DNA from: a virus
IMG/VR virus record: IMGVR_UViG_3300042503_002860
Span: 47,653 to 111,652 of that record
Direction: 5' to 3' (one strand)
DNA length: 64,000 nt
In this document: piece after piece, positions 10,979 to 59,194 of the stretch
Numbering within the stretch: position 1 is the first letter of the stretch
Layout: every line of letters begins with the position of its first letter
Made by a program: the position numbers and the translations under genes
The notes under the pieces: model-generated
Told to the model about the DNA's origin: nothing
Databases searched by the model: none
Seen by the model: the letters and a program-made list of their open reading frames with translations, nothing else

Positions 10979-10983
10979 GTTCC

Positions 10984-12341: not shown

Positions 12342-12420
12342 AGAATCATTTTTTAGCTATCACTAAATATAGCACACATAGATAAATGCTACAATAAAAT
12401 AAAAGTTAAATCAATAAAAT

Positions 12421-14673: not shown

Positions 14674-14710
14674 TATTTGTAGTAGAATATGAGAACCATC
14701 TTTTTAATCT

Positions 14711-14754
14711 CAAAAAAAGCAGTTAGCTAATCATAGCTGACTGCAATTTTTTTA
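14711..14754. terminator. Bidirectional terminator between portal unit and tape measure
   Basis: GCAGTTAGCT (14719-14728) pairs with AGCTGACTGC (14735-14744), one G-T wobble, 6-base loop. An A-tract lies on the left and a T-tract on the right, so it stops transcription from both convergent operons. Confidence 0.85.
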
Positions 14755-14770
14755 TGTTGATTTAGATATA

Positions 14771-37828: not shown

Positions 37829-38092
37829 ATGACTATTATCACGGATGCCAATGTTTATGATAACCTCACAGCAGAAGAAAAAATAGGGATACACATTTTT
37901 ATCTGTAGAGAACAGAAAAATATGTCTAGGAAACAGTTGGCCTCTAAAGTAGGAAAAACTGTAGAAGTCATATCTGCAATTGAAAACTTGTTTCAGCATC
38001 GCGAATCTAGAAGACAATCAATTGCCTATAGCGAAATTGAAGCTATAGCACGCGCCTTAGATATACCTATAAATCAAATTCTCCCTAAATGA
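37829..38092 (+). CDS. XRE-family helix-turn-helix regulator
   Basis: 87 residues with a Cro/CI-type HTH at about 29-84: 'MSRKQLASKVGKTVEVISAI' (helices 2-3) and 'IEAIARALDIPINQIL' at the C-terminus. No dimerisation domain beyond the HTH. It is divergent from the head operon (start 138 bases from the protease start) and one base before the propeller gene. It could repress the late promoter in 37691-37828, where a GTGAAAA/TTTTCAC inverted repeat lies at about 37757-37788. It is one candidate for the repressor that reads the ten operators at 43-47 kb. Confidence 0.8.
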   Translation: MTIITDANVYDNLTAEEKIGIHIFICREQKNMSRKQLASKVGKTVEVISAIENLFQHRESRRQSIAYSEIEAIARALDIPINQILPK

Positions 38093-39502: not shown

Positions 39503-42217
39503 CTAACTAAAAGGATTGTGGATCTTACCACCAACAAAGCTACTACGCGGAGTAGATTCTTGTAACTCACCAAAAGCACCATCAGCACTATCCACAATAT
39601 CGTTAGTCAGTGGTTTCTTACTACCATCAAATTCATGTAACGCCGCTAAAAATTGATCATTCCACGCACCCCTAAATAGTTTCACCTTTCCATCTTTAGC
39701 AGCAATAGCTAAAGGCATAGCGCGTGTTACTTTATCACCTAACGGCTTAACACCTCTAGCATCAAATCCTACTAACTGCCGTTTAAGCGATGACTCGTAA
39801 CGTTTGCCAGCACTACCGCCTTCTAATTCCCAGCGCACCTTACAAGCAGTTCCATCTTGTTGCGCGATTTTCAAAACTGAATTATCTCCGTCATCCGCCG
39901 ATACCTGTTCCCAAAAACAATCAAGTACATAATAGATACCTTGGTATAGCTTGATTTTAGTCCGTACACTGTAGAAACTACTTTTTGACGCTGTAGCCGA
40001 CGACGTAGCGGCAAAGTCCCAAAAAGCCACAGTTTGACCACCAGCCGGAACAGAGTTAACCACTTCAAACCAATGACGATTAAATATAGTACCCGCTTCA
40101 TATTTAATTTTCCAATTACCTTTTAATAGTCGCTCCATCTCCACAGGATGCAATGATAAAAGGTTTTGCAGATACTGAGGATTAGATTCTAATAGATGCG
40201 GATTATCATATACAGTCCCCTTGATAAAAGTAAAACTTTTTGGTGGTGCGATCGCTGCCAAGTCTGGAAATTGATCCATTAATTCCTGTTCTGTATCACC
40301 CCAATGAATCTCACCATTGATCCGGTAAAAATACCTCAAAACTCCCGATCTTTCTTCGATAGGGTAGCCAGTATCTTGATCAATGTACCAAGCTACTAAC
40401 TTTGCTACCCATGAATCGGCATCAGGGTTACAAGTTGCATCAATACGAGGTCTAACGCCACAGGTTGATCTATTCCGTGAGAACAAAAACCAGAATTGAC
40501 GCTCTGTAAATTTTGTTAACTCGTCAAAGCCAAGATGACATATCTGTGAACCTGGATATTTATCCTCAACATCTTTTTCATATTGAGCGTGTCCAAAACT
40601 GATAGCACTACCAGTAGGAAAAACCCAGTCTAGTTGATATTCTCTAGCTTGGGCTTTAGGAATTAATTTATATAAATTTCTTGACTCATCCCATAACCCG
40701 CCTTCGTTAGTTATCTCAGGTCGAGTCCGTCTTAGAATAACAGAGCCATAACCCGGTACTTTTAAGAATTTAGACGCTTTTAAGAGCATTGAAAAGCTGT
40801 TATGGGTGACGTTATATCCGTCGGTAATGTAAAGATGATTAGGATTAGAGACAGTAATACAGCGACAGTAAACTTTTTTACCTAACTTTTCAATATTTGT
40901 AATAGCCTTCCCAACCCAAATATTAGGCTCATGACTCATTGCCGCTTCTATTTTGCGAGGCAAGCTAAATAAACGGTGGCGATTGTTACCCTCAACTGAT
41001 ACTATATAAGCCATCCGTTTTTCACCTTCATAACCTTTGGTATAGCAAACACCTTGCTTTTGGCGAATCTTAGCAATAAAACCTAATGACCTCACTAAAT
41101 TAGCTACGTCTTCCGCTAATTCTAGTGATACTGTGCAATAAGAAACCTCATTTTTTTCCACAGTTGCAGTTGCGGCATAGCCATCAGTGTCAAACAAACC
41201 TTGAGCTAAATTCCATCTAAACCCTAATGATTCCTTCAAATAACCTTTAGGAATAAATTTCTCATGAGAATATTTGCCCATTAGTCCAGTATTAACAGCC
41301 CAATTCCTTACCCAGTCATCCTTAATAGTTATATACGCAAAGTAAGGTTGCTGACTTTGTTCTGACTTATCTCTAATACTGTACTTCTCTAATAGCGATA
41401 AACATCTTTCTTGTATCCAAATATCCGCAGTACAAAAACCAATCCCATTAGTTTTTCTTCCCTGGATCATCCCGTCACCAAGCAAAACACCGTATAAATA
41501 AGCCCTATCTTCACGCCCTCTTGTTATGTGTGTGTAGTTAAGCGGTGCGGTAATAGGAATTATAAACCTTCTGTCTTTTTGAATTTCTTGAAATAACCAT
41601 TCAGTATCTCTAACTCTAGCCCTTGAAATGTAGTTAATATTCCAATTAGTCGCATCATTGTTATCAAGTATTAGCTTTTTGCCTTCTCTAGTTTTCTTTC
41701 TACTATCTTGCCTTGCTTCCCAAAAACCCCACAAATGATCACCAGAACACTCAACGCTAGTCTTATCTTCAAAAGTTACTTTATAAACGTCTAACAGTCC
41801 ACGCTCATGGACTTGAATAATTTCTTGAGCGTGTCCGTCAGGATTCATGATCCTATCACCTACCGCAACTTCAGAAAATCCTTTCCATTCACCATTCCAC
41901 ATTAATACTTTACTATCCATGTCTCTAATTTCTTTGGGTACTAAGTGAATTATATCATGATAGTAGTCCGCCGTAAATCCTAAAATATTTTGGAACGCCC
42001 ACCCTAAACCATAACAGCTTTCCGCCTTCCCACTACCTGCGGCTCCACCATATATGCACACATCGGCAGGTGTATTATAGAACATTTCTTGCGCGCCTGG
42101 TGAAGGTGCAGGAAGATTGACCTCAAAATCAGATGTGTCTACCATCTGATTATCTATAGTGGCTTTTTTAATTTTTTTTATATTCTTAGGGTTAAGTCTG
42201 CCAAAGGATAAAGTCAT
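39503..42217 (-). CDS. Terminase large subunit with an intein in Walker A
   Basis: 904 residues before splicing, about 495 after. The host protein has an ATPase with Walker A 'GGAAGSGK'+'S' (split by the intein after Lys64), Walker B 'ICHLGFDELTK', a coupling motif region 'RIDATCNPD', and a C-terminal RNase H-like nuclease region with Asp in 'VAFWDFA' and 'QLVGFDARG' and late acidic residues 'DIVDSADGAFG'. It cuts and pumps DNA into the prohead. Without splicing the ATPase cannot work. It lies 25 kb from the portal gene and 7.8 kb from the small subunit. Confidence 0.9.
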   Translation of the reverse strand: MTLSFGRLNPKNIKKIKKATIDNQMVDTSDFEVNLPAPSPGAQEMFYNTPADVCIYGGAAGSGKAESCYGLGWAFQNILGFTADYYHDIIHLVPKEIRDMDSKVLMWNGEWKGFSEVAVGDRIMNPDGHAQEIIQVHERGLLDVYKVTFEDKTSVECSGDHLWGFWEARQDSRKKTREGKKLILDNNDATNWNINYISRARVRDTEWLFQEIQKDRRFIIPITAPLNYTHITRGREDRAYLYGVLLGDGMIQGRKTNGIGFCTADIWIQERCLSLLEKYSIRDKSEQSQQPYFAYITIKDDWVRNWAVNTGLMGKYSHEKFIPKGYLKESLGFRWNLAQGLFDTDGYAATATVEKNEVSYCTVSLELAEDVANLVRSLGFIAKIRQKQGVCYTKGYEGEKRMAYIVSVEGNNRHRLFSLPRKIEAAMSHEPNIWVGKAITNIEKLGKKVYCRCITVSNPNHLYITDGYNVTHNSFSMLLKASKFLKVPGYGSVILRRTRPEITNEGGLWDESRNLYKLIPKAQAREYQLDWVFPTGSAISFGHAQYEKDVEDKYPGSQICHLGFDELTKFTERQFWFLFSRNRSTCGVRPRIDATCNPDADSWVAKLVAWYIDQDTGYPIEERSGVLRYFYRINGEIHWGDTEQELMDQFPDLAAIAPPKSFTFIKGTVYDNPHLLESNPQYLQNLLSLHPVEMERLLKGNWKIKYEAGTIFNRHWFEVVNSVPAGGQTVAFWDFAATSSATASKSSFYSVRTKIKLYQGIYYVLDCFWEQVSADDGDNSVLKIAQQDGTACKVRWELEGGSAGKRYESSLKRQLVGFDARGVKPLGDKVTRAMPLAIAAKDGKVKLFRGAWNDQFLAALHEFDGSKKPLTNDIVDSADGAFGELQESTPRSSFVGGKIHNPFS
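40799..42025 (-). mobile_element. Class 3-type intein with LAGLIDADG homing endonuclease
   Basis: Residues 65-473 of the terminase precursor. The first residue is Ala, the last two are His-Asn, the +1 residue is Ser. Block B is SGDHLW with Trp163 two residues after the His; block F is KVYCRC with Cys451 where class 1 inteins have Asp; block G has Thr471 before HN. These three form the WCT signature of class 3 inteins. The endonuclease motifs are 'YGVLLGDGMI' (about 242-251) and 'LAQGLFDTDGY' (about 337-347). About 38 residues precede the usual block A-like segment (DSKVLMWNGEW). Confidence 0.85.
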
Positions 42218-42267: not shown

Positions 42268-42429
42268 TCATTTTTGCAATGGTGACATTCTTGCCTGACC
42301 TAAAGGGCATATTTTGTCTTTTAACTTAACCTTGCAGCAAGCTGGGCATCTCACGCCTTTAGGATCTTCTGCCTGTTCTGTACAGGTTTTAATTTGAGAG
42401 TCTACAGCGTCTTCATTAAGATAAAGCAT
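42268..42429 (-). CDS. Small zinc-ribbon-like protein
   Basis: 53 residues from ATG at 42427-42429. A 'RCPACCKVKLKDKICPLG' segment gives a CPxCC knuckle and a second CP motif 9 residues on, similar to the Com-type zinc-ribbon peptides found in some phages, though the fourth ligand is not clear. Between the DnaJ-like gene and terminase, with a terminator hairpin just upstream. Function unknown; DNA or RNA binding is possible. Confidence 0.5.
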   Translation of the reverse strand: MLYLNEDAVDSQIKTCTEQAEDPKGVRCPACCKVKLKDKICPLGQARMSPLQK

Positions 42430-42435
42430 AAAAAA

Positions 42436-42455
42436 TGGGGTGATAGTTCACCCCA
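42436..42455 (-). terminator. Terminator after DnaJ-like gene
   Basis: TGGGGTGA and TCACCCCA form a perfect 8-bp stem with a 4-base loop followed, on the minus strand, by a T-tract. Confidence 0.8.
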
Positions 42456-42460
42456 TAATT

Positions 42461-42946
42461 TTATCCTACTTTGATATTTTTATTAAACTTGCTGGCGTTG
42501 GTGCATCCGTACTTTTTGGCTAGTTCTTCCAGGCTGTCCGGTGATGACTTGCCGTAATACTTGCCAATCTTAAAATACCAACAGCCGCGCTTAGAGTGCC
42601 ATGTACAGCCCGCTTGTTTGATTTTGTCCTTAACTGGTTTTGTGTCACCAGTTATCCAGATCCAAGTTCCTATTAAACCTATCTCTACTTCCATATTGAG
42701 AGATAATAGTTCAATGATCTTGTCCATCAAAGCTTTTTCAATTTCTTGGTTGTATTTGTATGTGTACTCTTGACCTTGATCATCCTTACTAGTTTGACCA
42801 TTGCAGTTTTTTAATGCAGCTTCATAAGCATTGTTTAACGCTTTCATTGTCTCCAGATCCCCGCCTAAGTCTGGATGATGTTTCACAGCTAATTTTTTAT
42901 AGTTAATTTTGATTTGTTCTACGGTCATTCCTGAGAAGTTAAACAT
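42461..42946 (-). CDS. J-domain protein (DnaJ-like)
   Basis: 161 residues. The N-terminal 45 residues are a truncated J-domain with the HPD motif (KKLAVKHHPDLGGD), which stimulates DnaK. The C-terminal domain (WIWITGDTKPVKDKIKQAG, then WHSKRGCWYFK) is the one found on J-proteins of phages and mobile elements, of unknown function. First cassette of the operator-controlled array: its promoter contains the 14-bp operator and it ends in its own terminator. It may recruit host DnaK for replication or assembly. Confidence 0.8.
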   Translation of the reverse strand: MFNFSGMTVEQIKINYKKLAVKHHPDLGGDLETMKALNNAYEAALKNCNGQTSKDDQGQEYTYKYNQEIEKALMDKIIELLSLNMEVEIGLIGTWIWITGDTKPVKDKIKQAGCTWHSKRGCWYFKIGKYYGKSSPDSLEELAKKYGCTNASKFNKNIKVG

Positions 42947-42997
42947 TGTTTTACCCTTTATTCTTTGTTGTTTTTTTTTGTTTTATCCTGTATGACT

Positions 42998-43027
42998 AAT
43001 ATAGTGGATAGACTATATTTTTGTCAA
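42998..43027 (-). promoter_or_regulatory. Promoter with embedded operator, copy 1
   Basis: Minus-strand TTGACA (43022-43027) and TATATT (42998-43003), 18-base spacer, with the operator ATAGTGGATAGACTAT at 43001-43016 overlapping the -10. Drives the J-protein gene. Confidence 0.75.
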
Positions 43028-43058
43028 CAGGATTTTAGAAAATATTTTAAGTAGCCTA

Positions 43059-43283
43059 TTACTTTATTTGTTTGGAATCTCTTAGCCATTGCCAAACATC
43101 GCCAGCTAAACCACAAAACACTACTTCACCATCTTTCAAAATGTAGCGTCGTTGCAAGCTGCGACTAATTAAATTTTCATGTTCTCTAGTAGTCATATTT
43201 AAGCAACCGAGAACAGAATATAAACTCATATCTTTTGTATCTAACATTTGCTTTGTTTCCTTAGAAAATTTAGTATGCTTCAA
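43059..43283 (-). CDS. Small protein of unknown function
   Basis: 74 residues, basic at the start, 'GEVVFCGLAGDVWQWLRDS' near the C-terminus. It overlaps the stop of 43270-43647 by 14 bases and so is the second gene of that cassette. Unrecognised; soluble, no membrane segment. Confidence 0.5.
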   Translation of the reverse strand: MKHTKFSKETKQMLDTKDMSLYSVLGCLNMTTREHENLISRSLQRRYILKDGEVVFCGLAGDVWQWLRDSKQIK

Positions 43284-43647
43284 TAATTACTATGTCACCA
43301 GTTAACCAGCATTTTTCAACGCTACCAGATACACTACCGCCCCAAAACTCCATAAACCAGGGAGGAGTATTTTTAAGTGCTTTATCTGCACTTTTTTGAC
43401 TTTTATATGTAGCATACACGCCACCAAAAGCAGTGATCGCCCATGTTTTTTTACCTGTCAAAATATTTAGTAATCGTACGACTTTAGGCTGATCTAGCCC
43501 CTTGGCTTCTGCCTCTAATTTTTCTAGCTTACCTTCCAGAATAATTAATTGATCAATGTAAAATCTAATTCCGTCACTGATAAGTTTTAAAGTAGCTTCG
43601 ATTTGGTGTTTGAGTGTACGGATTTGGTAAGAAATTGTGGTGGTCAT
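43270..43647 (-). CDS. Small protein sharing an N-terminal module with 43794-44282
   Basis: 125 residues. The first about 46 residues (MTTTISYQIRTLKHQIEATL onward to GKLEKLE) form a coiled coil nearly identical to the start of the protein at 43794-44282. The C-terminal part is unrelated: 'WAITAFGGVYATYKSQKSAD' and 'PPWFMEFWGGS'. Preceded by a promoter with operator copy 2. The common module probably oligomerises or targets two different effector domains to one partner. Confidence 0.6.
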   Translation of the reverse strand: MTTTISYQIRTLKHQIEATLKLISDGIRFYIDQLIILEGKLEKLEAEAKGLDQPKVVRLLNILTGKKTWAITAFGGVYATYKSQKSADKALKNTPPWFMEFWGGSVSGSVEKCWLTGDIVIIEAY

Positions 43648-43685
43648 CTTGTTTTGTTTCTCTGTTGTTTTAACCTTATGTATCT

Positions 43686-43714
43686 ATACTAGTGGATAGA
43701 CTATTTTTTGTCAA
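43686..43714 (-). promoter_or_regulatory. Promoter with embedded operator, copy 2
   Basis: Minus-strand TTGACA (43709-43714), 17-base spacer, TAGTAT (43686-43691). Operator TAGTGGATAGACTA at 43690-43703. Confidence 0.75.
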
Positions 43715-43754
43715 TAGGTTTTTCTAAAATAATTTAAAATATTTTTTTTGCAAT

Positions 43755-43788
43755 AAAAAACCCTAGCAACTTATTAGCCGCTAGGGTT
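43755..43788 (-). terminator. Intrinsic terminator
   Basis: AACCCTAG (43759-43766) pairs with CTAGGGTT (43781-43788), followed on the minus strand by T-tract; ends the cassette 43794-44282. Confidence 0.75.
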
Positions 43789-43793
43789 AAGGA

Positions 43794-44282
43794 TTAAACA
43801 ACACCATCTATGATGTCGGAACGCTTTGCTAAGTATTCATAAAATTTTTCTTGCTGTACTTGTGGAAGATTAGAAGCTTTCCACTGGTTATTAAAGTAGT
43901 CGCGTTCTGCTTTAAACAGAATCGCGTAATTTATAAAATACTCGCTGTACTCTTCACGGAGTTTAATTAATCTGTCTTCATTTTTATTTCTTTTTAAAAC
44001 CTCTTTTCTGAAGACATAACGCCATTCATAATTAGGTACACTACGCATTGCCCAAGCTAAATAGTCTGTAGGAATGTCACGAACGCAACTACCCTTGTAT
44101 TTTCCAAAGGTTACTACTTTTGCGCTGTCTGGAGTGTTAAGACTGCTTTCTAATTTTTCCAATTTGCCCTCTAAAATGATAAGTTGATCAATATAAAATA
44201 AAATACCATCTGCAATAAGTTTTAAAGTAGCTTCGATTTGATGTTTGAGTGTACGGATTTGGTAGAAAATTGTAGTAGTCAT
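43794..44282 (-). CDS. Small protein: shared coiled-coil module plus FGKYKG domain
   Basis: 162 residues. Residues 1-46 match the N-terminus of 43270-43647. Residues about 55-80 (VVTFGKYKGSCVRDIPTDYL, then WAMRSV) match the short 'FGKYKGxxxxDIPxDYLxW' domain found in exonuclease-associated and phage accessory proteins. The C-terminal half is helical and charged. Own operator-bearing promoter and own terminator. The mix of a conserved head and swapped tail suggests recombination within the coding region. Confidence 0.65.
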   Translation of the reverse strand: MTTTIFYQIRTLKHQIEATLKLIADGILFYIDQLIILEGKLEKLESSLNTPDSAKVVTFGKYKGSCVRDIPTDYLAWAMRSVPNYEWRYVFRKEVLKRNKNEDRLIKLREEYSEYFINYAILFKAERDYFNNQWKASNLPQVQQEKFYEYLAKRSDIIDGVV

Positions 44283-44317
44283 CTTGTTTGTTTCCTGTGT
44301 TTTAACCTTATGTAACT

Positions 44318-44346
44318 ATAATAGTGGATAGACTATTTTTTGTCAA
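44318..44346 (-). promoter_or_regulatory. Promoter with embedded operator, copy 3
   Basis: Minus-strand TTGACA (44341-44346), 17-base spacer, TATTAT (44318-44323). Operator TAGTGGATAGACTA at 44322-44335. Confidence 0.78.
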
Positions 44347-44385
44347 TAGGTTTTTCTAAAATAATTTAAAATAGTTTTTTACAAT

Positions 44386-44410
44386 AAAAAACCCTTGTAA
44401 CTTAAGGGTT
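44386..44410 (-). terminator. Intrinsic terminator
   Basis: AACCCTT (44390-44396) pairs with AAGGGTT (44404-44410), T-tract follows on the minus strand. Confidence 0.7.
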
Positions 44411-44439
44411 TAATAATTTTATCTAGTTTTTTAAAGTAA

Positions 44440-44670
44440 TTAAAGTAAAACAAACTGCTGCCCAGGTAGTTGTCTCACTAAGCCAGCTAGTTCAAACTCT
44501 AGCAAGATATTTGATATAGGAAAATCAAAGTTTTTCTGTATTTGAGAGTAACTGAGATGTTTCTTTTCACTTTCACAAAACAACACGGCTATATCGTTCA
44601 TTGCCTGTTCAGTTTGTGCTTGAGTAGGTTGCTGGTGAGTAGGTTGGTGTTTACTTTTAGCTTTAGCCAT
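44440..44670 (-). CDS. Small winged-helix protein, DprA C-terminal-domain-like
   Basis: 76 residues. After a Q/T/K-rich N-terminus (about 25 residues) a winged-helix-like region follows whose end, 'SNILLEFELAGLVRQLPGQQ', is the pattern of the C-terminal winged helix of DprA ('LLELELxGLVxxxPGxxY'). No DprA Rossmann domain is present. Own promoter with operator copy 4, own terminator. It could bind DNA, or compete with host DprA for its partners; the second idea is speculative. Confidence 0.6.
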   Translation of the reverse strand: MAKAKSKHQPTHQQPTQAQTEQAMNDIAVLFCESEKKHLSYSQIQKNFDFPISNILLEFELAGLVRQLPGQQFVLL

Positions 44671-44718
44671 TATCTTGTCTCCTGTTTTCTTGTTTTCTTG
44701 TCTTATCCTTATGTACCT

Positions 44719-44747
44719 ATAATAGTGGATAGACTATTTTTTGTCAA
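44719..44747 (-). promoter_or_regulatory. Promoter with embedded operator, copy 4
   Basis: Minus-strand TTGACA (44742-44747), 17-base spacer, TATTAT (44719-44724). Operator TAGTGGATAGACTA at 44723-44736. Confidence 0.78.
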
Positions 44748-44776
44748 TAGGTTTTTTAAAATAATTTTTTACAATA

Positions 44777-44802
44777 AAAAAACCCTGAGTTAATCAGGGT
44801 TT
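44777..44802 (-). terminator. Intrinsic terminator
   Basis: AAACCCTGA (44780-44788) pairs with TCAGGGTTT (44794-44802), T-tract follows on the minus strand. Confidence 0.75.
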
Positions 44803-44806
44803 AAGC

Positions 44807-45181
44807 TTAAAATTCAATTAGGTCAGAATCAATTATTTCAGGATTATTTCTGAGAAACCAATAAGCTTGTCCTCTGGTTTTGAAAGTGTAAACAGTTGGA
44901 TGCCATTCTTTTATTATATATTTGTATTTGCCTCTACCAAAACCAGAATCATCTTTATAGGTCATTTCAGTAGGCGTGTTGCGTTCAACGTTTTCCTCCA
45001 TGTATTTTTGAGCCTCTTCATGGTTTTTAAAACCCTGTTCAAACTCATTCATGTTGTAATAACGATAATCTGTTACTGTGTATAGTGGATTTGAAAAATC
45101 ACTAGTGTGAATGGGATGAGACAGCAAAAAATTAATTTTTTTATTTAATTCGCGTTCTTGAGTTTTAGTTAAAGTAGTCAT
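44807..45181 (-). CDS. Small protein of unknown function
   Basis: 124 residues, charged, with aromatic-rich segments (VTDYRYYNMNEFEQGFKN, KYKYIIKEWHPTVY). No recognised domain and no membrane segment. Monocistronic cassette: operator copy 5 in its promoter and a terminator directly after the stop. Candidate early or counter-defence protein by context only. Confidence 0.6.
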   Translation of the reverse strand: MTTLTKTQERELNKKINFLLSHPIHTSDFSNPLYTVTDYRYYNMNEFEQGFKNHEEAQKYMEENVERNTPTEMTYKDDSGFGRGKYKYIIKEWHPTVYTFKTRGQAYWFLRNNPEIIDSDLIEF

Positions 45182-45218
45182 CTTATTTTGTCTCTTTTTG
45201 TTTTGACCTTATGTAACT

Positions 45219-45247
45219 ACTATAGTCTATCCACAAATAAAAGTCAA
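45219..45247 (-). promoter_or_regulatory. Promoter with embedded operator, copy 5
   Basis: Minus-strand TTGACT (45242-45247), 17-base spacer, TATAGT (45219-45224). Operator in the other orientation, TTGTGGATAGACTA, at 45223-45236. Confidence 0.72.
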
Positions 45248-45287
45248 TAGGTTTTTCAAAATAATTTAAAATATTTTCTTAAAATAA

Positions 45288-45313
45288 AAAAAACCCTTGT
45301 AACTCAAGGGTTT
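45288..45313 (-). terminator. Intrinsic terminator
   Basis: AAACCCTTG (45291-45299) pairs with CAAGGGTTT (45305-45313), T-tract follows on the minus strand. Confidence 0.75.
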
Positions 45314-45324
45314 AATAGTCTTAT

Positions 45325-45465
45325 TTAGTTTTTTTGGTTGATATGATTGTTTACAATCGCTTTTAGTTCTTCTAGAGTCTTTGCCATTAGAAGATGATAA
45401 TTATTGAAATCTTTACTCTCTGCTACATATCCCATGTAGGTCTTATGAATTATATAGTTATCCAT
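45325..45465 (-). CDS. Very small protein of unknown function
   Basis: 46 residues from ATG at 45463-45465 (MDNYIIHKTYMGYVAESKDF). Clean frame between a promoter with operator copy 6 and a terminator, so it fits the one-gene cassette pattern of this region. The AGAATAAAAC leader is a weak ribosome binding site. Unrecognised; probably a helix plus short strands. Confidence 0.55.
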   Translation of the reverse strand: MDNYIIHKTYMGYVAESKDFNNYHLLMAKTLEELKAIVNNHINQKN

Positions 45466-45509
45466 CTGTTTTATTCTCCGTCGCTCTGTTGTTTTGACCT
45501 TATGTATTT

Positions 45510-45538
45510 ACTATATAGTCTATCCACTAATTTGTCAA
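45510..45538 (-). promoter_or_regulatory. Promoter with embedded operator, copy 6
   Basis: Minus-strand TTGACA (45533-45538), 17-base spacer, TATAGT (45510-45515). Operator at 45516-45529. Confidence 0.75.
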
Positions 45539-45576
45539 TAGGTTTTTCAAAATAATTTAAAATATTTTTTAAAATA

Positions 45577-45602
45577 GAAAAACCCTTGAGTTACAAGGGT
45601 TT
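45577..45602 (-). terminator. Intrinsic terminator
   Basis: AAACCCTTG (45580-45588) pairs with CAAGGGTTT (45594-45602), T-rich on the minus strand. Confidence 0.7.
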
Positions 45603-45607
45603 TAGCT

Positions 45608-45781
45608 TTATTCTTGTTCTTGTTCTTTAGCTTCAGCGCGTTTACGCCTCATGTGTTCCCTATTGGCAAGTCGTTTTTTCTCCCTTTGCGCTTCACTCAT
45701 ATTCTGTTGCCACTTACGCTTACGGGCTTTACCCTTTTCAGTGGCGTTGTATTTGGCTTGGGCTTCCGGATCATAAGCCAT
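45608..45781 (-). CDS. Small, highly basic protein
   Basis: 57 residues from ATG at 45779-45781. Very rich in K, R, E and Q (KGKARKRKWQQNMSEAQREK). One long amphipathic helix is likely, as in small phage proteins that bind nucleic acid. Promoter with operator copy 7 and its own terminator. No further identification. Confidence 0.6.
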   Translation of the reverse strand: MAYDPEAQAKYNATEKGKARKRKWQQNMSEAQREKKRLANREHMRRKRAEAKEQEQE

Positions 45782-45817
45782 AGTGAAAATCTCCTAGTCA
45801 TCTTGTTTATCACTATA

Positions 45818-45846
45818 TGTATAGTCTATCCAATTTTCTCTGTCAA
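45818..45846 (-). promoter_or_regulatory. Promoter with partial operator, copy 7
   Basis: Minus-strand TTGACA (45841-45846), 17-base spacer, TATACA (45818-45823). The operator is reduced to TTGGATAGACTA at 45822-45833, the most diverged copy. Confidence 0.65.
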
Positions 45847-45892
45847 TCGTACGGGTATAAAAAATAAACTAAAAAATATTTTAAATTAAGTA

Positions 45893-45921
45893 TTGACTTT
45901 TATTTGTGGATAGACTATATT
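45893..45921 (+). promoter_or_regulatory. Promoter with embedded operator, copy 8 (plus strand)
   Basis: TTGACT (45893-45898), 17-base spacer, TATATT (45916-45921). Operator TTGTGGATAGACTA at 45904-45917. Preceded by an AT-rich UP-like stretch (AATATTTTAAATTAAG) that recurs before copies 9 and 10 and the 52-kb promoters. Confidence 0.78.
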
Positions 45922-45949
45922 TAAAACATAAGCAAAGAAGCAAAAAACA

Positions 45950-46210
45950 ATGTACGTTACTTTTGAAACATCTGACGGTCAAAAAATCACAATTGATATC
46001 ACAAGGGTTAAAGCTTGGGACACAGAAGATTTAGTTCACACTGCTTGCGAGCAACTAGGACTAGAGTATGTAGATTTTTCTAGGAGATCAAAAAAATTGA
46101 AAGGCACGGTGACACCAATAGACTGGAGACCGCTAATCCAGGAGTACAGATCAGAAATGGTCATTTTAAAAAGACCACCCAGAAAAGGTGTGATTCCCGT
46201 TCCCTGGTAA
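45950..46210 (+). CDS. Small protein of unknown function
   Basis: 86 residues, beta-rich start (MYVTFETSDGQKITIDIT), basic C-terminus (LKRPPRKGVIPVPW). First plus-strand cassette, divergent from the basic protein gene; both promoters carry the same operator back to back. Ends in its own terminator. Unrecognised. Confidence 0.6.
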   Translation: MYVTFETSDGQKITIDITRVKAWDTEDLVHTACEQLGLEYVDFSRRSKKLKGTVTPIDWRPLIQEYRSEMVILKRPPRKGVIPVPW

Positions 46211-46221
46211 ACAAGATACAC

Positions 46222-46253
46222 AACCGCTTAGGCTTAAACTTAAGCGGTTTTTT
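46222..46253 (+). terminator. Intrinsic terminator
   Basis: AACCGCTTA (46222-46230) pairs with TAAGCGGTT (46241-46249), T-tract follows. Confidence 0.85.
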
Positions 46254-46314
46254 ATGTTTTATTCTCAGTAAGATATTGTATAAAAAAGAAACTAAAAATA
46301 TTTTAAATTAAGTA

Positions 46315-46343
46315 TTGACTTTTATTTGTGGATAGACTATATT
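46315..46343 (+). promoter_or_regulatory. Promoter with embedded operator, copy 9 (plus strand)
   Basis: TTGACT (46315-46320), 17-base spacer, TATATT (46338-46343). Operator TTGTGGATAGACTA at 46326-46339; nearly identical to copy 8 including the upstream AT stretch. Confidence 0.78.
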
Positions 46344-46398
46344 TAAAACATAAGGAAAAACAAGTAAGACAAAAACAAAAACAAAGGGGACAAACTAA

Positions 46399-46665
46399 AT
46401 GACAGCACTACAAAACCAGTACAACACACTAACTGTTAAAATTGCTGAATTAAAAGATCAACGCGATCAACAACAATGGTTACAAGCAAAGATAGACTTA
46501 ACAGTTAAAATAGCAGAATTAGAAAATCAACAAAAAGTAATAGCTAGTAAAATAATAAAAAACGGTGGTGAACTTCCACAAAAAGCCAAACAGAAAAGAC
46601 AGCCAACAAAACAAAAAGCAAATAACCTATTAGCTTACGCTGAACATCTAAAAAGCCATTTCTAA
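46399..46665 (+). CDS. Small coiled-coil protein
   Basis: 88 residues. Residues 5-55 contain two related heptad-rich segments (LTVKIAELKDQRDQQQ and LTVKIAELENQQKVI), so a small internal duplication forms a coiled coil. The tail is basic (KAKQKRQPTKQKAN). One-gene cassette with promoter copy 9 and own terminator. Probably oligomeric and nucleic-acid-binding; unproven. Confidence 0.6.
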   Translation: MTALQNQYNTLTVKIAELKDQRDQQQWLQAKIDLTVKIAELENQQKVIASKIIKNGGELPQKAKQKRQPTKQKANNLLAYAEHLKSHF

Positions 46666-46687
46666 TAAAACTTAATAAAAAAAAAAC

Positions 46688-46719
46688 AACCGCTTAAGCT
46701 CAAGCTTAGGCGGTTTTTT
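46688..46719 (+). terminator. Intrinsic terminator
   Basis: AACCGC (46688-46693) with an inner TAAGCT/AGCTTA stem pairs with GCGGTT (46710-46715), T-tract follows. Confidence 0.8.
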
Positions 46720-46790
46720 GTATCCATATCACAAATACTTAGTATTCATAATATGCTATAGTGGTGTTAAATGCTATAGGGACTAAATAT

Positions 46791-47066
46791 ATGACTAAAA
46801 CTTTAGATGATTATATGCAAGTTATCCTAGTCCAACAGGTAGCGTTTATCAGTCAAGCCCAAGATATCTATAAGCAGTCTGGAAGGTCTAAAGACGCTAA
46901 GAATATTTCAGAACTGATGTCAGGGTTATCTATCTTTACAGAGTCCATAGGGGCTATGAACGAGGTAGGAATAGCTAGTATTGATATTGAATCTATAAAA
47001 GTATTGATCAATAAATTGGAACTGGAGATGTATTACCAAGAAAATGCAGATGTAGATGATGAGTAA
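46791..47066 (+). CDS. Small helical protein of unknown function
   Basis: 91 residues from ATG at 46791; the frame extends 10 codons upstream but the chosen start is preceded by a GGGAC/AG-rich leader and gives MTKTLDDYMQ. Helical and acidic at the C-terminus (YYQENADVDDE). Unlike its neighbours its promoter region (46730-46780) lacks the operator and shows a GCTATAG direct repeat instead. Unrecognised. Confidence 0.55.
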   Translation: MTKTLDDYMQVILVQQVAFISQAQDIYKQSGRSKDAKNISELMSGLSIFTESIGAMNEVGIASIDIESIKVLINKLELEMYYQENADVDDE

Positions 47067-47085
47067 GAAGGTATATAAATATAAT

Positions 47086-47116
47086 AACAACCGCTTAGAG
47101 TAATGTTTAAGCAGTT
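47086..47116 (+). terminator. Imperfect intrinsic terminator
   Basis: AACCGCTTA pairs with TTAAGCAGTT with a mismatch, followed by a short T-tract. Confidence 0.55.
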
Positions 47117-47193
47117 GTTTTGTATTTGTCGTGGTAAAGTGTATAACACATTTACTCTTTGTTTCATATCCTAAAAATATTTTAATTTAGTGC

Positions 47194-47222
47194 TTGACAA
47201 ATAATAGTGGATAGACTATATT
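47194..47222 (+). promoter_or_regulatory. Promoter with embedded operator, copy 10 (plus strand)
   Basis: TTGACA (47194-47199), 17-base spacer, TATATT (47217-47222). Operator TAGTGGATAGACTA at 47205-47218. Consensus-like and probably strong when not repressed. Confidence 0.8.
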
Positions 47223-47250
47223 TATTATAGAAACAAAAAAGGTAAACAAA

Positions 47251-47433
47251 ATGACTACTTTAACAACCAGAGAACAATTAAAACAAAACTACATTTTAGC
47301 AGATCACAATTATCAACTAGCCTATGCAGAGTACATGATTAATGGTGATTTTACAAAACTTAAAAAAGCAGAGACAGCTAAAAAGAAAGCGTTTAGCCAA
47401 TTACAAAAACATATAAAGGCAAACTTTAAATAA
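47251..47433 (+). CDS. Small helical protein of unknown function
   Basis: 60 residues, Lys- and Gln-rich helix (KLKKAETAKKKAFSQLQK). The last plus-strand cassette, ending 6 bases before the stop of the convergent PLP-fold gene. Downstream of the strongest operator-bearing promoter. Unrecognised. Confidence 0.55.
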   Translation: MTTLTTREQLKQNYILADHNYQLAYAEYMINGDFTKLKKAETAKKKAFSQLQKHIKANFK

Positions 47434-47439
47434 AAAATT

Positions 47440-48144
47440 TTAACCCATTACATTCCAAAACAAAGGAACACCTTGCCCGTACTTTTTAACATACTCCCAC
47501 CCTTTAGCATCGTAATTAGAACAAGATGGAAAGGGTGGTTTTATTTTAGAGTCTTTGTCGAATGTCAAAGGATGCTTATATATTTTAGCATTACCCATTT
47601 TACTTACATCTAATGATTTACCAACTTGGATAACATTAAACGTAACATTAGAGGTAAACCCTAATTGCAAGGATCTAGATAAAACACCACTCCCACCAAC
47701 ACACCAAACCTCAGTTATATTTGAATGTGTTCCTTGTATTTGTCTGGCAACTTTAGCTATTTCACTAAATGACAATGGTGTTTCTAATCCAAAAGGTAAA
47801 AGATGTGCGCCTGTATCACTACAATAGGCTTTTGCTTTAGATATAACATTACTCAAGTAGCCATAAGGAACTTGTATTATTGTTGCACCTGCTCTTTTAG
47901 CTTCTAATGTTCTAGCGTGAGGTGTTTTCCTCTTAGCACAAAATATAGTAACTTTTACGCCTACTTCTTTTCCTGCGTGAGCAAGAGCTATTTGCGCCCC
48001 ACCATATACGGGTGAAGTATAAACTACTTCACGATAGCCTTTTATCAATTGATCTGAAAAACGCCTCTTAGTTCCGCCAGGTATATAATCGTCCCTGACT
48101 ACTAAGATTCCGTCATGCTCTTTAATGATTGGTTCAAATCTCAT
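47440..48144 (-). CDS. PLP-dependent enzyme-fold protein (tryptophan synthase beta/ACC deaminase type)
   Basis: 234 residues, shorter than cellular members (about 330). The N-terminal 'DDYIPGGTKRRFSDQLI' places a Lys where fold type II enzymes bind PLP, and 'VWCVGGSGVLSRSL' resembles the Gly-rich phosphate-binding loop. Middle part 'AHAGKEVGVKVTIFC' and 'EAKRAGATIIQVP' fits the fold. It overlaps the methylase stop by ATGA coupling. Such a protein next to ParB-like and methylase genes recurs in phages; a role in DNA base modification is plausible but not shown. Confidence 0.7.
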   Translation of the reverse strand: MRFEPIIKEHDGILVVRDDYIPGGTKRRFSDQLIKGYREVVYTSPVYGGAQIALAHAGKEVGVKVTIFCAKRKTPHARTLEAKRAGATIIQVPYGYLSNVISKAKAYCSDTGAHLLPFGLETPLSFSEIAKVARQIQGTHSNITEVWCVGGSGVLSRSLQLGFTSNVTFNVIQVGKSLDVSKMGNAKIYKHPLTFDKDSKIKPPFPSCSNYDAKGWEYVKKYGQGVPLFWNVMG

Positions 48145-49106: not shown

Positions 49107-49213
49107 GGAATAGCCCTCCCTTTGGAATCACCTCTAGTATGGTCTTTTGAATACGACATAGATGGCATTAAAGAACCGCTTGGCACTGCTAAGTAACGTG
49201 CCTTGCTGCTCAT
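49103..49213 (-). CDS. Small ORF linking ParB-like and methylase frames
   Basis: 36 residues (MSSKARYLAVPSGSLMPSMS start). Its ATG follows an eight-G tract (49214-49221) and overlaps the ParB stop as ATGA; its stop TGA overlaps the methylase GTG. The sequence looks like the linker between the two domains of fused ParB-methylases, so the three ORFs may be one ancestral gene split by frame changes, kept by coupled or frameshifted translation. It may instead be a free peptide. Confidence 0.5.
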   Translation of the reverse strand: MSSKARYLAVPSGSLMPSMSYSKDHTRGDSKGRAIP

Positions 49214-49938
49214 CCCCCCCCATTCGGAATTAGCTGATCGCCACGACCTAATTCACTTTGAATACCTAAAGCAAGCCATTCACGTTTGCGCTTCTGCCAA
49301 TAGCCTTGTCTTGCATCCAAAACAGAAAACGGTGGCACTATAAACTTGTCTGCCAATGTTTTCTTTCCAGATTCGTTTTCCGTATCTTTGTCTTTATCAT
49401 TGTCATTAGCACTACCGTCTTTGTCATTACTACTTAATTCACGTCCTTTATCAACAACTACTTCTTTTTCTTGATATTCTGTATTTTCTAATGACAAATA
49501 ACTACTCAAATCCTCACTATCAAACCCTGTCAAAGTTAGATCAAAAGACATTTCATTTAGAAAGTCCATGTCTATCTTTAACAAGTCAGGATCAAAGTCT
49601 GTATTCATTGTTAGCTTATTATGCTGTACACGATAAGCTATCTTTTGTTCTTCAGTTAGTCCTAATACCTGAAATGTAGGAACAGATTTCAGATTTAAGA
49701 TATCTACAGCCGCTAAGTATCTCCCATGACCTTCTAATATTTCTCCATTCTCATCTATGGCAATAGGATCTAAGAATCCAAACTCAGTAATAGAATTGGC
49801 AATTTGTTGTATTTGTTCTGGCGGGTGTAGTTTACTGTTCTTAGCATACATGATAAGTTCCTTGGGATCTCGCCATGTAACTGTTAATTGATTTTTTGTA
49901 GTTGTGGACTTTACCCAACCTGGTTGTTGCTTAGGCAT
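49210..49938 (-). CDS. ParB/Srx-fold protein of the phage methylase system
   Basis: 242 residues. Residues about 28-110 are a ParB N-terminal-like domain: 'LHPPEQIQQIANSITEFGFL', 'GEILEGHGRYLAA', 'ILNLKSVPTFQV'. After an acidic D/N/K-rich linker the C-terminus 'PPFSVLDARQGYWQKRK' plus 'WLALGIQSELGRGDQL' is a segment typical of phage ParB-methylase fusions. It ends at an eight-G tract. It is probably a DNA-binding/CTPase-like or nuclease module guiding the methylase, rather than a partition protein; no parA gene is seen. Confidence 0.78.
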   Translation of the reverse strand: MPKQQPGWVKSTTTKNQLTVTWRDPKELIMYAKNSKLHPPEQIQQIANSITEFGFLDPIAIDENGEILEGHGRYLAAVDILNLKSVPTFQVLGLTEEQKIAYRVQHNKLTMNTDFDPDLLKIDMDFLNEMSFDLTLTGFDSEDLSSYLSLENTEYQEKEVVVDKGRELSSNDKDGSANDNDKDKDTENESGKKTLADKFIVPPFSVLDARQGYWQKRKREWLALGIQSELGRGDQLIPNGGG

Positions 49939-49995: not shown

Positions 49996-50550
49996 TTACT
50001 CATCATTACTAACAGATTTGGGATCTATAATTTCATAACCTTCTCTTGTGAGTTTATCAGCCGCAGCGTTCATGTCAATGAAGTATCTAATCCCTCTACC
50101 TTCGTTAATGGCGTTAGTCAGTTTTGTTAACGCTTGTGTCAGTTGATTTATTTCAGATGCGTTATGTTTAGAAACTGCTTTTTTCCTTTCCTCAACTGGC
50201 AACTGTAGATCCTCTTCTAATTGCTTTGCTCGTGCCTCGATTAATTTGGCAACATAGTTTCTCGCCAATCTTTGAACTTGATAATTCTCAGTGACAATCT
50301 GTGATAACTCATCTGATATCTTGTCAGATGTTTTTTCTATGGTCTTTTGCTGAACAGCTTTTTTTAAATCCTCTTGATATCGTTTTCGCTGCTCAACCCA
50401 AAGGTCTTGACGTACCCAAACCTCAACAGTTGCTTTATTATATCCACACGCATTAGCTAAGTCTCTAATGCCTATAGGCTCTTCACTTTCAACATACCGA
50501 CGACGGCATTGCTCTTTAGTCCAGGGTTTAGGTAATTTATCCCATCTCAT
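49996..50550 (-). CDS. Terminase small subunit
   Basis: 184 residues. An N-terminal HTH (IRDLANACGYNKATVEVWVR) is followed by a long helical region (KTIEKTSDKISDELSQIV, RNYVAKLIEARAKQLEED), the usual architecture of TerS, which recognises the packaging site. It precedes the ParB-methylase operon in the same direction, a linkage common in phages. The packaging site may lie in or near this gene; the folded element at 50647-50708 is 97 bases upstream. Confidence 0.7.
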   Translation of the reverse strand: MRWDKLPKPWTKEQCRRRYVESEEPIGIRDLANACGYNKATVEVWVRQDLWVEQRKRYQEDLKKAVQQKTIEKTSDKISDELSQIVTENYQVQRLARNYVAKLIEARAKQLEEDLQLPVEERKKAVSKHNASEINQLTQALTKLTNAINEGRGIRYFIDMNAAADKLTREGYEIIDPKSVSNDE

Positions 50551-53223: not shown

Positions 53224-56200
53224 TTAGACTGTTAGAAACGCCAGTTGCCTGCGCTGTTGTAACTGTTGAAAGACTGGTTTGCTCACTTGTTTATCTGTGG
53301 TTTCCGTAGCAATTCCTAGATGAGCCTTCCATAGGGCATCACCACCTTCATCCCCACTAGGATTATAGAAGTAGCTAAACATTCCCTCGTCTCTATTCTC
53401 GTATTGTGCTACCCAGCCAGTCCAAACTCTAAGAGTCAATTGATCCTCAGTGATGGTGTAGTTATTGAGAGGTGCATTACCATTAGCTGCTTTACCTGCA
53501 CCAGCCTCACGGTTTCTGCCTTTTTCCACATTCCAACCAATGCAAGTAAAGAACTTAGAAATGTTTGTAGCTGCCATGTCTGGACGGACATCTACATCAA
53601 AGCCAAAGGTTTTTTTGACATAGGCGCGGTTTTCTACTAATACCTTATTAGTTTTGATAATGATTGGCATACGGTTGTGAAAAAACATTACAGGTCTACC
53701 ATTATCAAGTTTTCCCCGCTTAGTAGCTTCCTGAAGTAATACATTTGCAAGTCCCTTGATATCCATAGTATTGATCATAAAATCAATACCAGCTTTCATA
53801 CTCATAGGAGTATCTTTGATTGACCTACTAGAAGAGTTGATCATGTTGCGGAACTCTTCAGCCATATAGATAATTTTGGCAATATCCTCTTGGCCATTAG
53901 TCATCGCACATCGGAAGCTAAAGCCATAAACTAACTTCCGGCGTGTCTTAGAACGTTTGCCCAATGTCCTGCGGACTAACTCCAGTTTTTCATCTTCATT
54001 GTACCCATTGCACCAACCGTACCCACCTTCTACTTTCACACCCAAGGAATAAAGAATACCTTTCAAATCTTTAGCCCGTGCGGTATCTTTAGGCATGGTA
54101 TCTTGATTCTTTTCAATAGAATCCAATAAGGCTAGATCGGCATTAGCTATTTCTACAAGTTTCTTTTCTTTTTGCGCTTCGCCGTATTCTTGCAAAGTAG
54201 CAATAAACTCTGCGTCTGATTCAAAGTCTTGATGATCAATTGTGTAGCCTTTTTCTTGCATCCGTGCTTTTAAATTAATACGGAACTCTTGAGCAGCATA
54301 GAAACTTTCCTCTAAAGAATCTTGCCACCAAGCTAGAATGTCCTTATCTAATTCTGGAAACTGTGCAGCTATACGCGCCTCAATTTCACTATGCTGTAAT
54401 ACTTTCATATCAGCCCAAGTCTGCATTAAGGCAGCCTTAGAACCATCATAACTGCGTCTTACTTCCTCAAAGTTTTTTTCAATGTTGGTAATATCACCTT
54501 TAGTCATGCCCATAGAAGAACGACGTGCAGCCCAAATAAACCGAACTACATTATCCCGAACCCGTTCTAACTGTTGTAGTGTGTTATCCATCCCCATGAT
54601 GCCCATGTACACACCGTATACACAGTCAAGTCCTAAATTATTCCAGTCAGTACCAGAATCAATTACTGGAGATATAAATATCACACCTTTACAGCACGCA
54701 CTAATGACGGCATGAAGATTATCTACAATATGATGATCTGGATCATCGCTAAATTGACGGGTATCTGCGTCTAAAATCCGTCCTAATTTTAGATCACGTA
54801 AGTAATTACCAAAGCCTTGAGTAGCCCAGTAAAATTTAGAAGATGATTGCTTAATATCTGTGAAAAACAAAGCCTTATGTGTGCTATCTTTAGCAGCTAA
54901 ACGACGGTTAACTTCGCTGTTCAATCCATCGCGGGCATCAGTAAATATTGCTTTACGTCCTTCTTCCTTAAACTTGCAATAAGAGTTAAGGATCACATAG
55001 CAGTTGTATTTAGCCTTGGTTGCTTCGGCATCATACTCTTCACCCCCGCACCAATGCTGAAATAAATTAATAGTTGATACTCTTAAATTGGCATCAGCTA
55101 ATATAATTCTGCCACCTGCTTTATAGATAGCTACCACAAGAGTTTTTAAAGCAGTAATAGCTTTTTGTCTATTTTCTGCAATAGTGCCTGATTCAATTAA
55201 ATATTTTACAAAAGACTCTGTTTCATCAATGACTAGTGTTGCATCTTTCCAATCATCAATTTTAAAGTCAGGCAAATAACCCTGTTCATTTGTCCCTTGA
55301 CACAGAGTATTAATGGTGATAGCTAAACCCTGTTTTTTAGCCGCTTCATATTTCTCAGAAGCACTTCTGTAATGTGGTGCTTTGTAGTCAACAATATTTA
55401 ACCGTTTAGCCGCTTGTCTGGTTAGTTGCTCACGGTGCGCGATCGCTAATAATTTGCCCTCACTCCAAGCCTTGACCTGGTTAGCCAGAACCTCGGTTTT
55501 ACCTGTTCCCATTTCCGACACAAACGCCACTAGCTTGCGGTTCTTAGCAGTTGCCTCACATTCTTTGACAACATCACTAAACCATTTACGATTAGCTGTG
55601 TGTCCATATAATAAAGCTTCTTTATTCTTACGATTACCCAGCATCTTAGGGGTAATTACTTGTGTAACACGCACCCAGTAATAATGAGCCGACCATTCAA
55701 TACCTTTCTCATCAATCACAACTACAGTAGGTTTGTAGTCTTTAATCTTGGTATCCTTATTATTTTTTCTTAGTAGATTACGCGCAACTTGAGAATAATA
55801 CCCAGCGCGTAAGTTTTCCGCTAACATCCGGTCAGTACCGGGGGCGTTAGGTGTAAAGTTAAAAGTAAATCCATTCTCACAAGCGTATTCTGCCAATAAA
55901 TGCAGATTTACGGCGGATGTCTCTTTATTCACATAGCACACACCAGGTATACCAGTATTCAGTATAGCTAAAGCATGAGTAGGACAAGTAGTTATATATA
56001 TAGATTTGTTTTCATTCAAGAAAGTAATAGCATTATTCCATCCGTTTTCGGATGCACTGTAAAGCAAAGGCAAGTCTGCAAAAGTAAGCTGTTGTGGTTT
56101 TTGTCTTAGACCTCGCACAGCCTCTTCAATCAAGTTAGTAATAGTGCGGTTGTGCTTGAGGTGAGCGATCGCGTCCTCACCAATTTTAGTCTCTTGTCTG

Positions 56201-57642: not shown

Positions 57643-58012
57643 GTTATAATACCTTCAACGAATCAAGAATTTTTTCTAAACATATTTTATCACCTGTTAG
57701 CGAGTAATGGGTGATATTTTTTTTATATTTTTGTAAAATAGCGTAAGACAGATTGTAAAATAGTATAATTAAATACTGATATATCCAGTGTTTCATGGCT
57801 GTTGCACCTTAATGGGATTTTTCAAAGGTAACACAGCCAAATATTTTAAACCTGTGGAAAAACCTGGGGAAAACTCTGTAATGCGGGTTTGCGTGATGTG
57901 GGTAAATCTCGAAACCCTTACTGTGTATGAATAAAAAAATTTTGTAATTTTTAGTAAACTTTTTAAGGTAACAAAAAACCCGCCTAAGTGTTTAAGCGGG
58001 ATTAGTATAGTG
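57643..58012. other. Intergenic region with a DnaA-box-like site, candidate origin
   Basis: No ORF. TGTGGAAAA at 57853-57861 is the complement of TTTTCCACA, the cyanobacterial DnaA box. TGTAAAATAG occurs twice (about 57730-57765). Promoter of the replication gene must lie here. A terminator for the ATPase gene is at 57972-58000. Confidence 0.5.
57972..58000 (-). terminator. Intrinsic terminator after the ATPase gene
   Basis: CCCGC (57979-57983) and GCGGG (57996-58000) with further inner pairing, followed on the minus strand by six T. Confidence 0.8.
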
Positions 58013-59014: not shown

Positions 59015-59194
59015 TGTTATAATACTGTCACAGCTATCTGTTCAGTAATTTTTACTATAATTAGTACAGCAATATGCTGACTTTAACAGTTTATAGCTAT
59101 TGCATCATATTCGGATCATGTATCAATTAAATTTTACTTTTCTTAAAGAATTGACTTATTAAATGAAGTGAAAAATAAACATTGACTAAGTATA

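Follow-up and report, generated by a model that had tools for sequence, protein, structure and literature searches.

A nine-base palindrome is shared by ten promoters

We analysed a 64,000-nucleotide stretch of viral DNA (the window), which corresponds to bases 47653-111652 of the 111,652-bp IMG/VR virus record IMGVR_UViG_3300042503_002860. It contains a cluster of small genes whose promoters carry a short palindrome, ATAG-W-CTAT, which we call the core and interpret as an operator. Ten sites at 43002-47218 matched TAGTGGATAGACTA, six of them exactly, three with one mismatch and one with two; an additional two-mismatch match at 7311 did not contain the core. All ten sites were located inside promoters made of a TTGACA or TTGACT box, a spacer of 17 bp (18 bp at 42998-43027) and a TA-rich -10 box, with seven promoters directed leftward and three rightward. 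These results confirmed the coordinates, boxes and spacings that a preliminary description of this DNA had given for ten operator-type sites placed in -35/-10 spacers. The ten promoters, with the position of the core and the genes that they drive, are the following:

42998-43027, minus strand: promoter 1, TTGACA-18-TATATT; core 43008-43016, near the -35 box; drives 42461-42946
43686-43714, minus strand: promoter 2, TTGACA-17-TAGTAT; core 43696-43704; drives 43270-43647, then 43059-43283
44318-44346, minus strand: promoter 3, TTGACA-17-TATTAT; core 44328-44336; drives 43794-44282
44719-44747, minus strand: promoter 4, TTGACA-17-TATTAT; core 44729-44737; drives 44440-44670
45219-45247, minus strand: promoter 5, TTGACT-17-TATAGT; core 45222-45230, flipped relative to promoters 1-4; drives 44807-45181
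45510-45538, minus strand: promoter 6, TTGACA-17-TATAGT; core 45515-45523, flipped relative to promoters 1-4; drives 45325-45465
45818-45846, minus strand: promoter 7, TTGACA-17-TATACA (weak -10 box); core 45821-45829; drives 45608-45781
45893-45921, plus strand: promoter 8, TTGACT-17-TATATT; core 45910-45918; drives 45950-46210
46315-46343, plus strand: promoter 9, TTGACT-17-TATATT; core 46332-46340; drives 46399-46665
47194-47222, plus strand: promoter 10, TTGACA-17-TATATT; core 47211-47219; drives 47251-47433

A consensus promoter scan of 42400-47500 gave ten matches to at least 10 of 12 positions, nine of which were operator promoters. Promoter 7 (45822) was overlooked by the scan because of its poor -10 box, and its coordinates were derived from the sequence directly. 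The scan total was not enriched (27 promoter-like matches compared to 21.7 in shuffles, standard deviation 4.7), so it is the quality of the operator promoters, rather than their number, that stands out. Several of them are similar blocks, and the ten promoters are not independent of each other. Two genes, 46761-47066 and 43059-43283, lack a dedicated operator promoter.

We also scanned the region for terminators and obtained 13 terminator-like hairpins where 2.5 were expected, some of them being one hairpin read on both strands. Hairpins were located after eight of the ten promoter units, and none was found after 43059-43283 and 47251-47433:

43759-43788, minus strand: terminator-like hairpin after 43794-44282
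42435-42456, 44389-44411, 44780-44802, 45291-45313 and 45579-45603, minus strand: terminator-like hairpins after other genes
46222-46249 and 46688-46715, plus strand: terminator-like hairpins after other genes

The earlier picture, in which nearly every promoter serves one small gene with its own terminator, was correct in its main points: the units are mostly single-gene, and promoter 2 drives two genes. By sequence scan, eight of the ten units combine a promoter and a terminator of their own, as a moron or autonomous cassette does. Morons are also expressed from a repressed prophage, and a shared operator would argue against such constitutive expression of the cassettes.

The conserved unit is the nine-base core

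The preliminary description had taken for the operator a 14-bp near-palindrome with arms ATAGT and ACTAT, and had proposed that it controls a regulon of phage cassettes. The shared element stood, with one core present in all ten promoters and clade-wide; the 14-bp unit proved wrong. What remained invariant, both in the window promoters and in terminase relatives with diverged flanks, was the 9-bp palindrome ATAG-W-CTAT. The TAGT of the left arm was broken in four of the ten window sites, and in relatives the left arm ATAGT was replaced by TAATG, TAAAA, TTGTG, AATTG and others, often one base further off. We rejected the arms of the 14-mer as the recognised unit because the left arm is unconserved and varies in sequence and spacing among relatives, and we dropped a 434-like reading (4-6-4 halves) because many relatives have an extra base between left arm and core. 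With up to three mismatches, the 14-mer occurred 15 times in the window compared to a shuffle mean of 7.2, a twofold excess that 1 of 100 shuffles reached. The core was present ten times in the whole record, compared to a Markov mean of 1.9 and a maximum of 6 in 100 runs, and all ten copies are the ten operators, within 4.2 kb. A weaker related site proposed at 1703-1712 turned out to be a three-mismatch match without the core, of the kind expected by chance.

We then analysed the linkage between core and promoter in eight large clade-A contigs (this record, G002, G003, G012, G013, G019, G020 and G021). A TTGACA-like box with at most one mismatch was present 3-17 bp away from 65 of the 69 cores, whereas for eleven control palindromes matched in composition the figure was 20 of 115 copies; these linkage totals count promoters copied by descent more than once (64 aligned rows were reduced to 32). 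Thus, a short site is common to many promoters of one phage, ten of ten in this record. Among 543 exact TTGACA boxes, 59 had an exact core and seven a one-mismatch core, and a single shuffle per spacer stretch gave none and four, respectively. Because the exact class is full and the one-mismatch class almost empty, this looks like the pattern of strict selection on nine bases. Once near-duplicates had been removed (leaving, of 64 rows, 32 with more than four differing bases), the core was exact in 32 nonredundant promoters of the eight contigs, and the adjoining bases varied. The profile was taken from the 23 of these with offsets of 10-12 in an alignment anchored on exact cores, and the one-mismatch count at TTGACA boxes is the fairer test because the alignment was built on exact cores. 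The listing of promoter-core pairs over redundant loci held 131 pairs, in a few of which a core was spuriously read a second time, as on both strands at 45222 and at 45515.

The core shifts and flips within the promoter

The position of the core relative to the -35 box was variable. In 51 of the 65 cases the core started 11 or 12 bp after the box, in seven 16 bp and in four 4 or 5 bp after it, and distances of 8, 9 and 10 bp occurred once each. In promoters 2 and 3 the core adjoins the -35 box; promoters 5 and 6 have it in the opposite orientation, next to or overlapping the -10 box. The flip has taken place between similar flanks (43690 and 44322 versus 45223 and 45516): the flanks of promoters 5 and 6 are 70% identical to those of promoter 3 in an ungapped comparison of the 30 bp upstream, and 64-68% identical downstream, and by eye the upstream flanks are near-identical if a one-base gap is allowed. 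It is mainly because the core shifts its position and flips, behaviour implausible for an element read by RNA polymerase, that we propose that it may be an operator bound by a dimeric repressor. A shifting, flippable core would fit occlusion of the core promoter by a symmetric binder.

The core is restricted to one phage clade

To define the distribution of the core, we counted it at terminase loci, one locus per contig; L034 and L035, which had been found by pattern, were left out, and L016 is nearly the same phage as that of the window. In the close terminase clade (about 76% identity or more) the core was present at 27 of 28 loci, with 175 copies in 452 kb, and the sole locus without it was L018, a 5.4-kb piece. 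In contrast, it was absent from all 25 loci of the next clade (58% terminase identity; 238 kb) and from all 23 more distant terminase loci (355 kb). Four large contigs of the 58% clade had one copy altogether. The nearest large terminase from a named phage, that of Aphanizomenon phage vB_AphaS-CL131, is 52% identical over 76% of the query, and the CL131 genome has one core copy in 112,793 bp, where a control palindrome has two. These results indicate that the operator network is clade-specific and conserved across one phage clade. Because the nearest named terminase is that of CL131, we take the window phage as one that may infect filamentous cyanobacteria, and the clade with shared-operator cassettes probably infects cyanobacteria.

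No prophage of this clade was detected among 84,980 species genomes searched with two short peptide patterns, and a terminase search of the genome collection gave 11 distant matches only, at 38-41% identity, in entries titled Lachnospiraceae, Oscillospiraceae and the like. The large serine recombinase of this record was not found in the seven relative contigs used for gene presence and absence, several of which are incomplete, which limits every claim of absence from them.

In the 58% clade (L127, L156, L161 and others) a different spacer motif, TTGAC..ACGGTAGA, was repeated in several promoter-like sites. Copies of GGTAGA with TTGAC at most 22 bp upstream amounted to 12 of 209 in that clade (redundant loci) and to 5 of 316 in clade A. 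This motif may be a counterpart of the operator that differs from it in sequence.

Gene content turns over behind the promoters

Seven of the 12 cluster genes examined had no relative (E 1e-3) in any of the seven contigs, and five of these seven are the first gene behind an operator promoter; for two of the seven, 42461-42946 and 43059-43283, relatives are present in L013, a small contig. Thus, gene content turns over behind a conserved switch. The 42461-42946 product is DnaJ-like (7e-6, just below the Pfam cut-off), that of 43794-44282 matches PF12843 (2.5e-5) and that of 44440-44670 gave a DprA winged-helix match below cut-off, and 45608-45781 codes for a small basic protein whose homologues are present in all seven relative contigs. 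A conserved N-terminal module of about 45 amino acids (QIRTLKHQIEATLKLI...) is common to 43270-43647, 43794-44282 and otherwise different proteins, also in L023 and L031. Its C-terminal partners are several and unrelated, and one of them resembles the DNA polymerase III beta clamp.

A gene for a putative ADP-ribosyltransferase (PF01129, 4e-12) was present in five of the seven relatives and stands behind the operator in nine loci; among its PHROG matches, those to structural proteins were stronger, and that to the Alt-like RNA polymerase ADP-ribosyltransferase was weak (3e-4). Because this putative enzyme sits behind the operator in relatives, we suggest that the cassettes may be early, host-takeover genes. 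For the scanned window genes no counter-defence family was found in Pfam and PHROGs, and no anti-defence library was searched. By eye, L011:6952-7137 of this record is related to a gene that is under operator control in L022-L025; it is located about 45 kb from the cluster and is operator-less.

ATAGWCTAT inside a promoter is a sequence handle for the fast-changing, probably early genes of this little-studied group of phages, whose members in relatives include the putative ADP-ribosyltransferase and the sliding-clamp-like fusion protein.

Candidate regulators

DNA-binding-type proteins present throughout the clade were an XRE protein, a TerS-like protein (49996-50550), a ParB-like protein (49210-49938) and the basic protein 45608-45781. 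The XRE protein lies outside the cluster:

37829-38092, plus strand: XRE (HTH_3) protein of 87 amino acids, HTH_3 match 2.6e-9

An XRE homologue was detected in 26 of 33 clade-A pieces and in none of 49 others. The seven misses were three other pieces of this record and L013, L031, L034 and L035, four contigs that, judged by gene order, stop short of the XRE position. Seven of the eight large contigs had the homologue, and the eighth, G013, also showed no neighbouring head genes. No match to the XRE protein was found in 50,697 named phage records; CL131 carries other, unrelated-looking HTH_3 proteins. Three contigs found via the XRE search only (L131, L144 and L151) had no core, and they are uninformative on the link between XRE protein and core because all three end less than 2 kb past the XRE gene on the side that carries the cores in L030.

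The structure of the XRE protein predicted with AlphaFold2 reached a predicted local distance difference test score (pLDDT) of 84 for the best model, with two of the five models at 62 and 52. The fold nearest to this model was the controller C.BclI (32% identity), followed by HppE, C.AhdI, ClgR, SinR and others. The candidate is thus predicted to have a small HTH_3 fold, as restriction-modification controllers do. No C-box was seen by eye in six XRE upstream sequences, and the XRE neighbours are head and terminase genes.

Other proteins were examined and rejected. The helix-turn-helix protein 756-980, which the preliminary description had put forward as a regulator along with the XRE protein, was found in none of the seven relative contigs, and the protein with the DprA winged helix was found in two of them and was rejected as a universal regulator. 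A conserved ribbon-helix-helix repressor was also discarded: PF01402, the sole family searched, gave weak matches in two of nine records and none over cut-off. No relative of the ribbon-helix-helix-like genes recognised by eye in G012, G013 and G019 was present in this record, and the seven contigs contained none of a similar gene at 62723-62902 of the window, which adjoins a type I restriction-modification-like block.

A probable shared repressor and alternative explanations

We consider it fairly probable that the cluster is a regulon of mostly single-gene cassettes in which a phage-made dimeric repressor, bound to ATAG-W-CTAT, blocks RNA polymerase at all the promoters. Each cassette would have a strong sigma-70-type promoter with the 9-bp palindromic operator between, or overlapping, the -35 and -10 boxes, and a small phage-encoded dimeric repressor would occupy the operator and exclude RNA polymerase from all promoters together. 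The XRE protein is the best candidate for the regulator that reads the site, a tentative assignment that we place a little short of an even chance. The candidate repressor might accumulate and silence the cassettes later in infection or, alternatively, might keep them off in a lysogen, if any exists. We also entertain, with considerable doubt, the possibility that the clade took a controller-protein-like XRE dimer as a concentration timer: about ten swappable takeover cassettes would fire at entry and then be silenced via the 9-bp operators, and new genes would land behind a ready promoter-operator-terminator slot. Should the regulator be confirmed, the system would amount to a small switch that acts on many promoters at once, and in metagenomic contigs the operator could serve as a flag for takeover or counter-defence genes of recent acquisition.

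Several observations weigh against this repressor model and its candidate. At offset 16, the 17-bp spacing makes the -10 box TAGACT or TAGTCT, a poor match. No core is present upstream of the XRE gene, so that the expected autoregulation is not seen. The TerS-like, ParB-like and basic proteins are equally universal in the clade, and some relatives carry further HTH_3-like proteins. The XRE sequence profile found no convincing solved relative (best E 0.006), and its fold matches also include HppE, ClgR and SinR. For a classical helix-turn-helix dimer, an odd palindrome of 9 bp is short. Finally, the co-absence of XRE protein and core in the next clade is weak evidence because several other genes also lack recognisable relatives there.

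Other readers of the site were considered. It is rather unlikely that a host transcription factor binds the operator and makes the cassettes follow the state of the host instead of a phage repressor. In its favour, the phage repressor is a candidate; however, the site is restricted to one terminase clade, with no occurrence at the 25 loci of the 58% clade, a single copy in that clade's four large contigs and one in CL131, fewer than the control palindrome. This restriction is itself a weak argument against a host factor. We also find unlikely the possibility that ATAGAC-TATAnT is an extended element of a phage promoter class, which would raise promoter strength or recruit a modified host polymerase without any repressor. 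Although the promoters are near consensus and 51 of 65 copies occupy one place, at offset 11-12 and overlapping the -10 box, all nine bases are also retained at offsets 4, 5, 9 and 16 and in both orientations, where the copies cannot make the same contact.

That the binder is an activator that turns the cassettes on, as some controller and MerR-type proteins do, seems very unlikely to us. The nearest folds of the XRE candidate include restriction-modification controllers, which are active in both activation and repression (PMC3115060), but near-consensus -35 and -10 boxes at 17-bp spacing need no activator, and a protein on the offset-16 sites would cover the whole -10 box and block polymerase. 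We give hardly any credence to the idea that a promoter block was duplicated by recombination and that the palindrome is functionless. Promoters 2, 3 and 4 are near-duplicates around the -35 box and core, and gene shuffling via promoter-stem-loop cassettes is ascribed to T4-type phages (PMC4503421); against this, the exact core persists in the 32 nonredundant promoters while its neighbours vary, and one-mismatch cores are nearly missing from TTGACA boxes.

Comparison with known systems

As a system the operator network is new; dispersed-operator phage regulons are already known, SPbeta and its repressor MrpR being an example. The operators of phage P1 C1 are dispersed over the genome at several promoters, as the sites described here are, but the P1 site is an asymmetric 17-bp sequence and P1 is a plasmid prophage. 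In T4-type phages, promoter early stem loops (PeSL) are cassettes of an early promoter and a stem loop between short, fast-exchanged open reading frames. They resemble the present cluster on the side of gene shuffling, through cassettes of promoter and stem loop, and to our knowledge have no shared repressor operator inside the promoter. The name PeSL is that used in PMC4503421.

The nearest working model is SPbeta, in which a repeated element (SPBRE), located in the promoter regions of about ten genes mostly of unknown function, is bound by MrpR, with ten peaks in chromatin affinity purification sequencing (ChAP-seq) (PMC10516654). Both systems have a short repeated element in the promoters of about ten phage genes. 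The SPbeta element, as described there, is a 15-bp motif read by a repressor of tyrosine-recombinase fold in a proven prophage, whereas here we find a 9-bp palindrome, a candidate regulator and no prophage. The operators and stoperators of cluster A mycobacteriophages are likewise many dispersed copies of the site of one phage repressor (PMC9283540; PMC4351075). However, cluster A stoperators are described as asymmetric and co-oriented with transcription (PMC4351075). Stoperators also lie inside transcription units, and we do not class the present sites as stoperators: the core is palindromic, occurs in both orientations and lies at promoters in 65 of 69 copies. The 17-bp palindromes of cluster O mycobacteriophages also are many palindromic repeats for which a dimeric regulator was considered; according to that account they lie mostly away from promoters, about a third of them in coding sequence, and its authors doubt a transcriptional role (PMC4351075).

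Controller (C) proteins of restriction-modification systems are small dimers that bind short quasi-palindromes of consensus GACTTATAGTC (PMC4321490), and one controller-protein site takes in part of the -35 box (PMC3758141). Controllers such as C.BclI, C.AhdI and C.Esp1396I belong to the solved folds most similar to the XRE candidate, which differs from these controllers in the sequence of its supposed site, in having no adjacent restriction genes and in having no core upstream of its own gene. The genome paper of CL131 describes 21 sigma-70-like promoters whose -35 and -10 sequences vary, and the word operator does not appear in the text examined (PMC6293099). A literature search on the 14-mer, stoperators, cyanophage operators and early promoters with repressor sites found no description of the element, which is no proof of absence.

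Other features of the record

Outside the window, bases 9904-15198 of the record (L009) code for a type I-C effector set (Cas7, Csd1, Cas5d and Cas3) of a clustered regularly interspaced short palindromic repeats (CRISPR) system. Open reading frames derived from repeats flank the set on both sides, suggesting arrays; cas1 and cas2 were not seen by eye among the L009 open reading frames, and no search aimed at them was made. Within the window, the terminase (39503-42217) has 904 amino acids compared to about 490-516 in the relatives looked at. It contains an insertion of about 400 amino acids that is intein-like by appearance, and the CL131 terminase aligns across it. The open reading frame at 14771-29923, of 5050 amino acids, probably codes for the tape measure protein, and G021 has an open frame of 5860 amino acids. 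The region 53224-62562 codes for a 1472-amino-acid protein with a ResIII match, an AAA ATPase, HsdS and HsdM, which together form a type I restriction-modification-like block.

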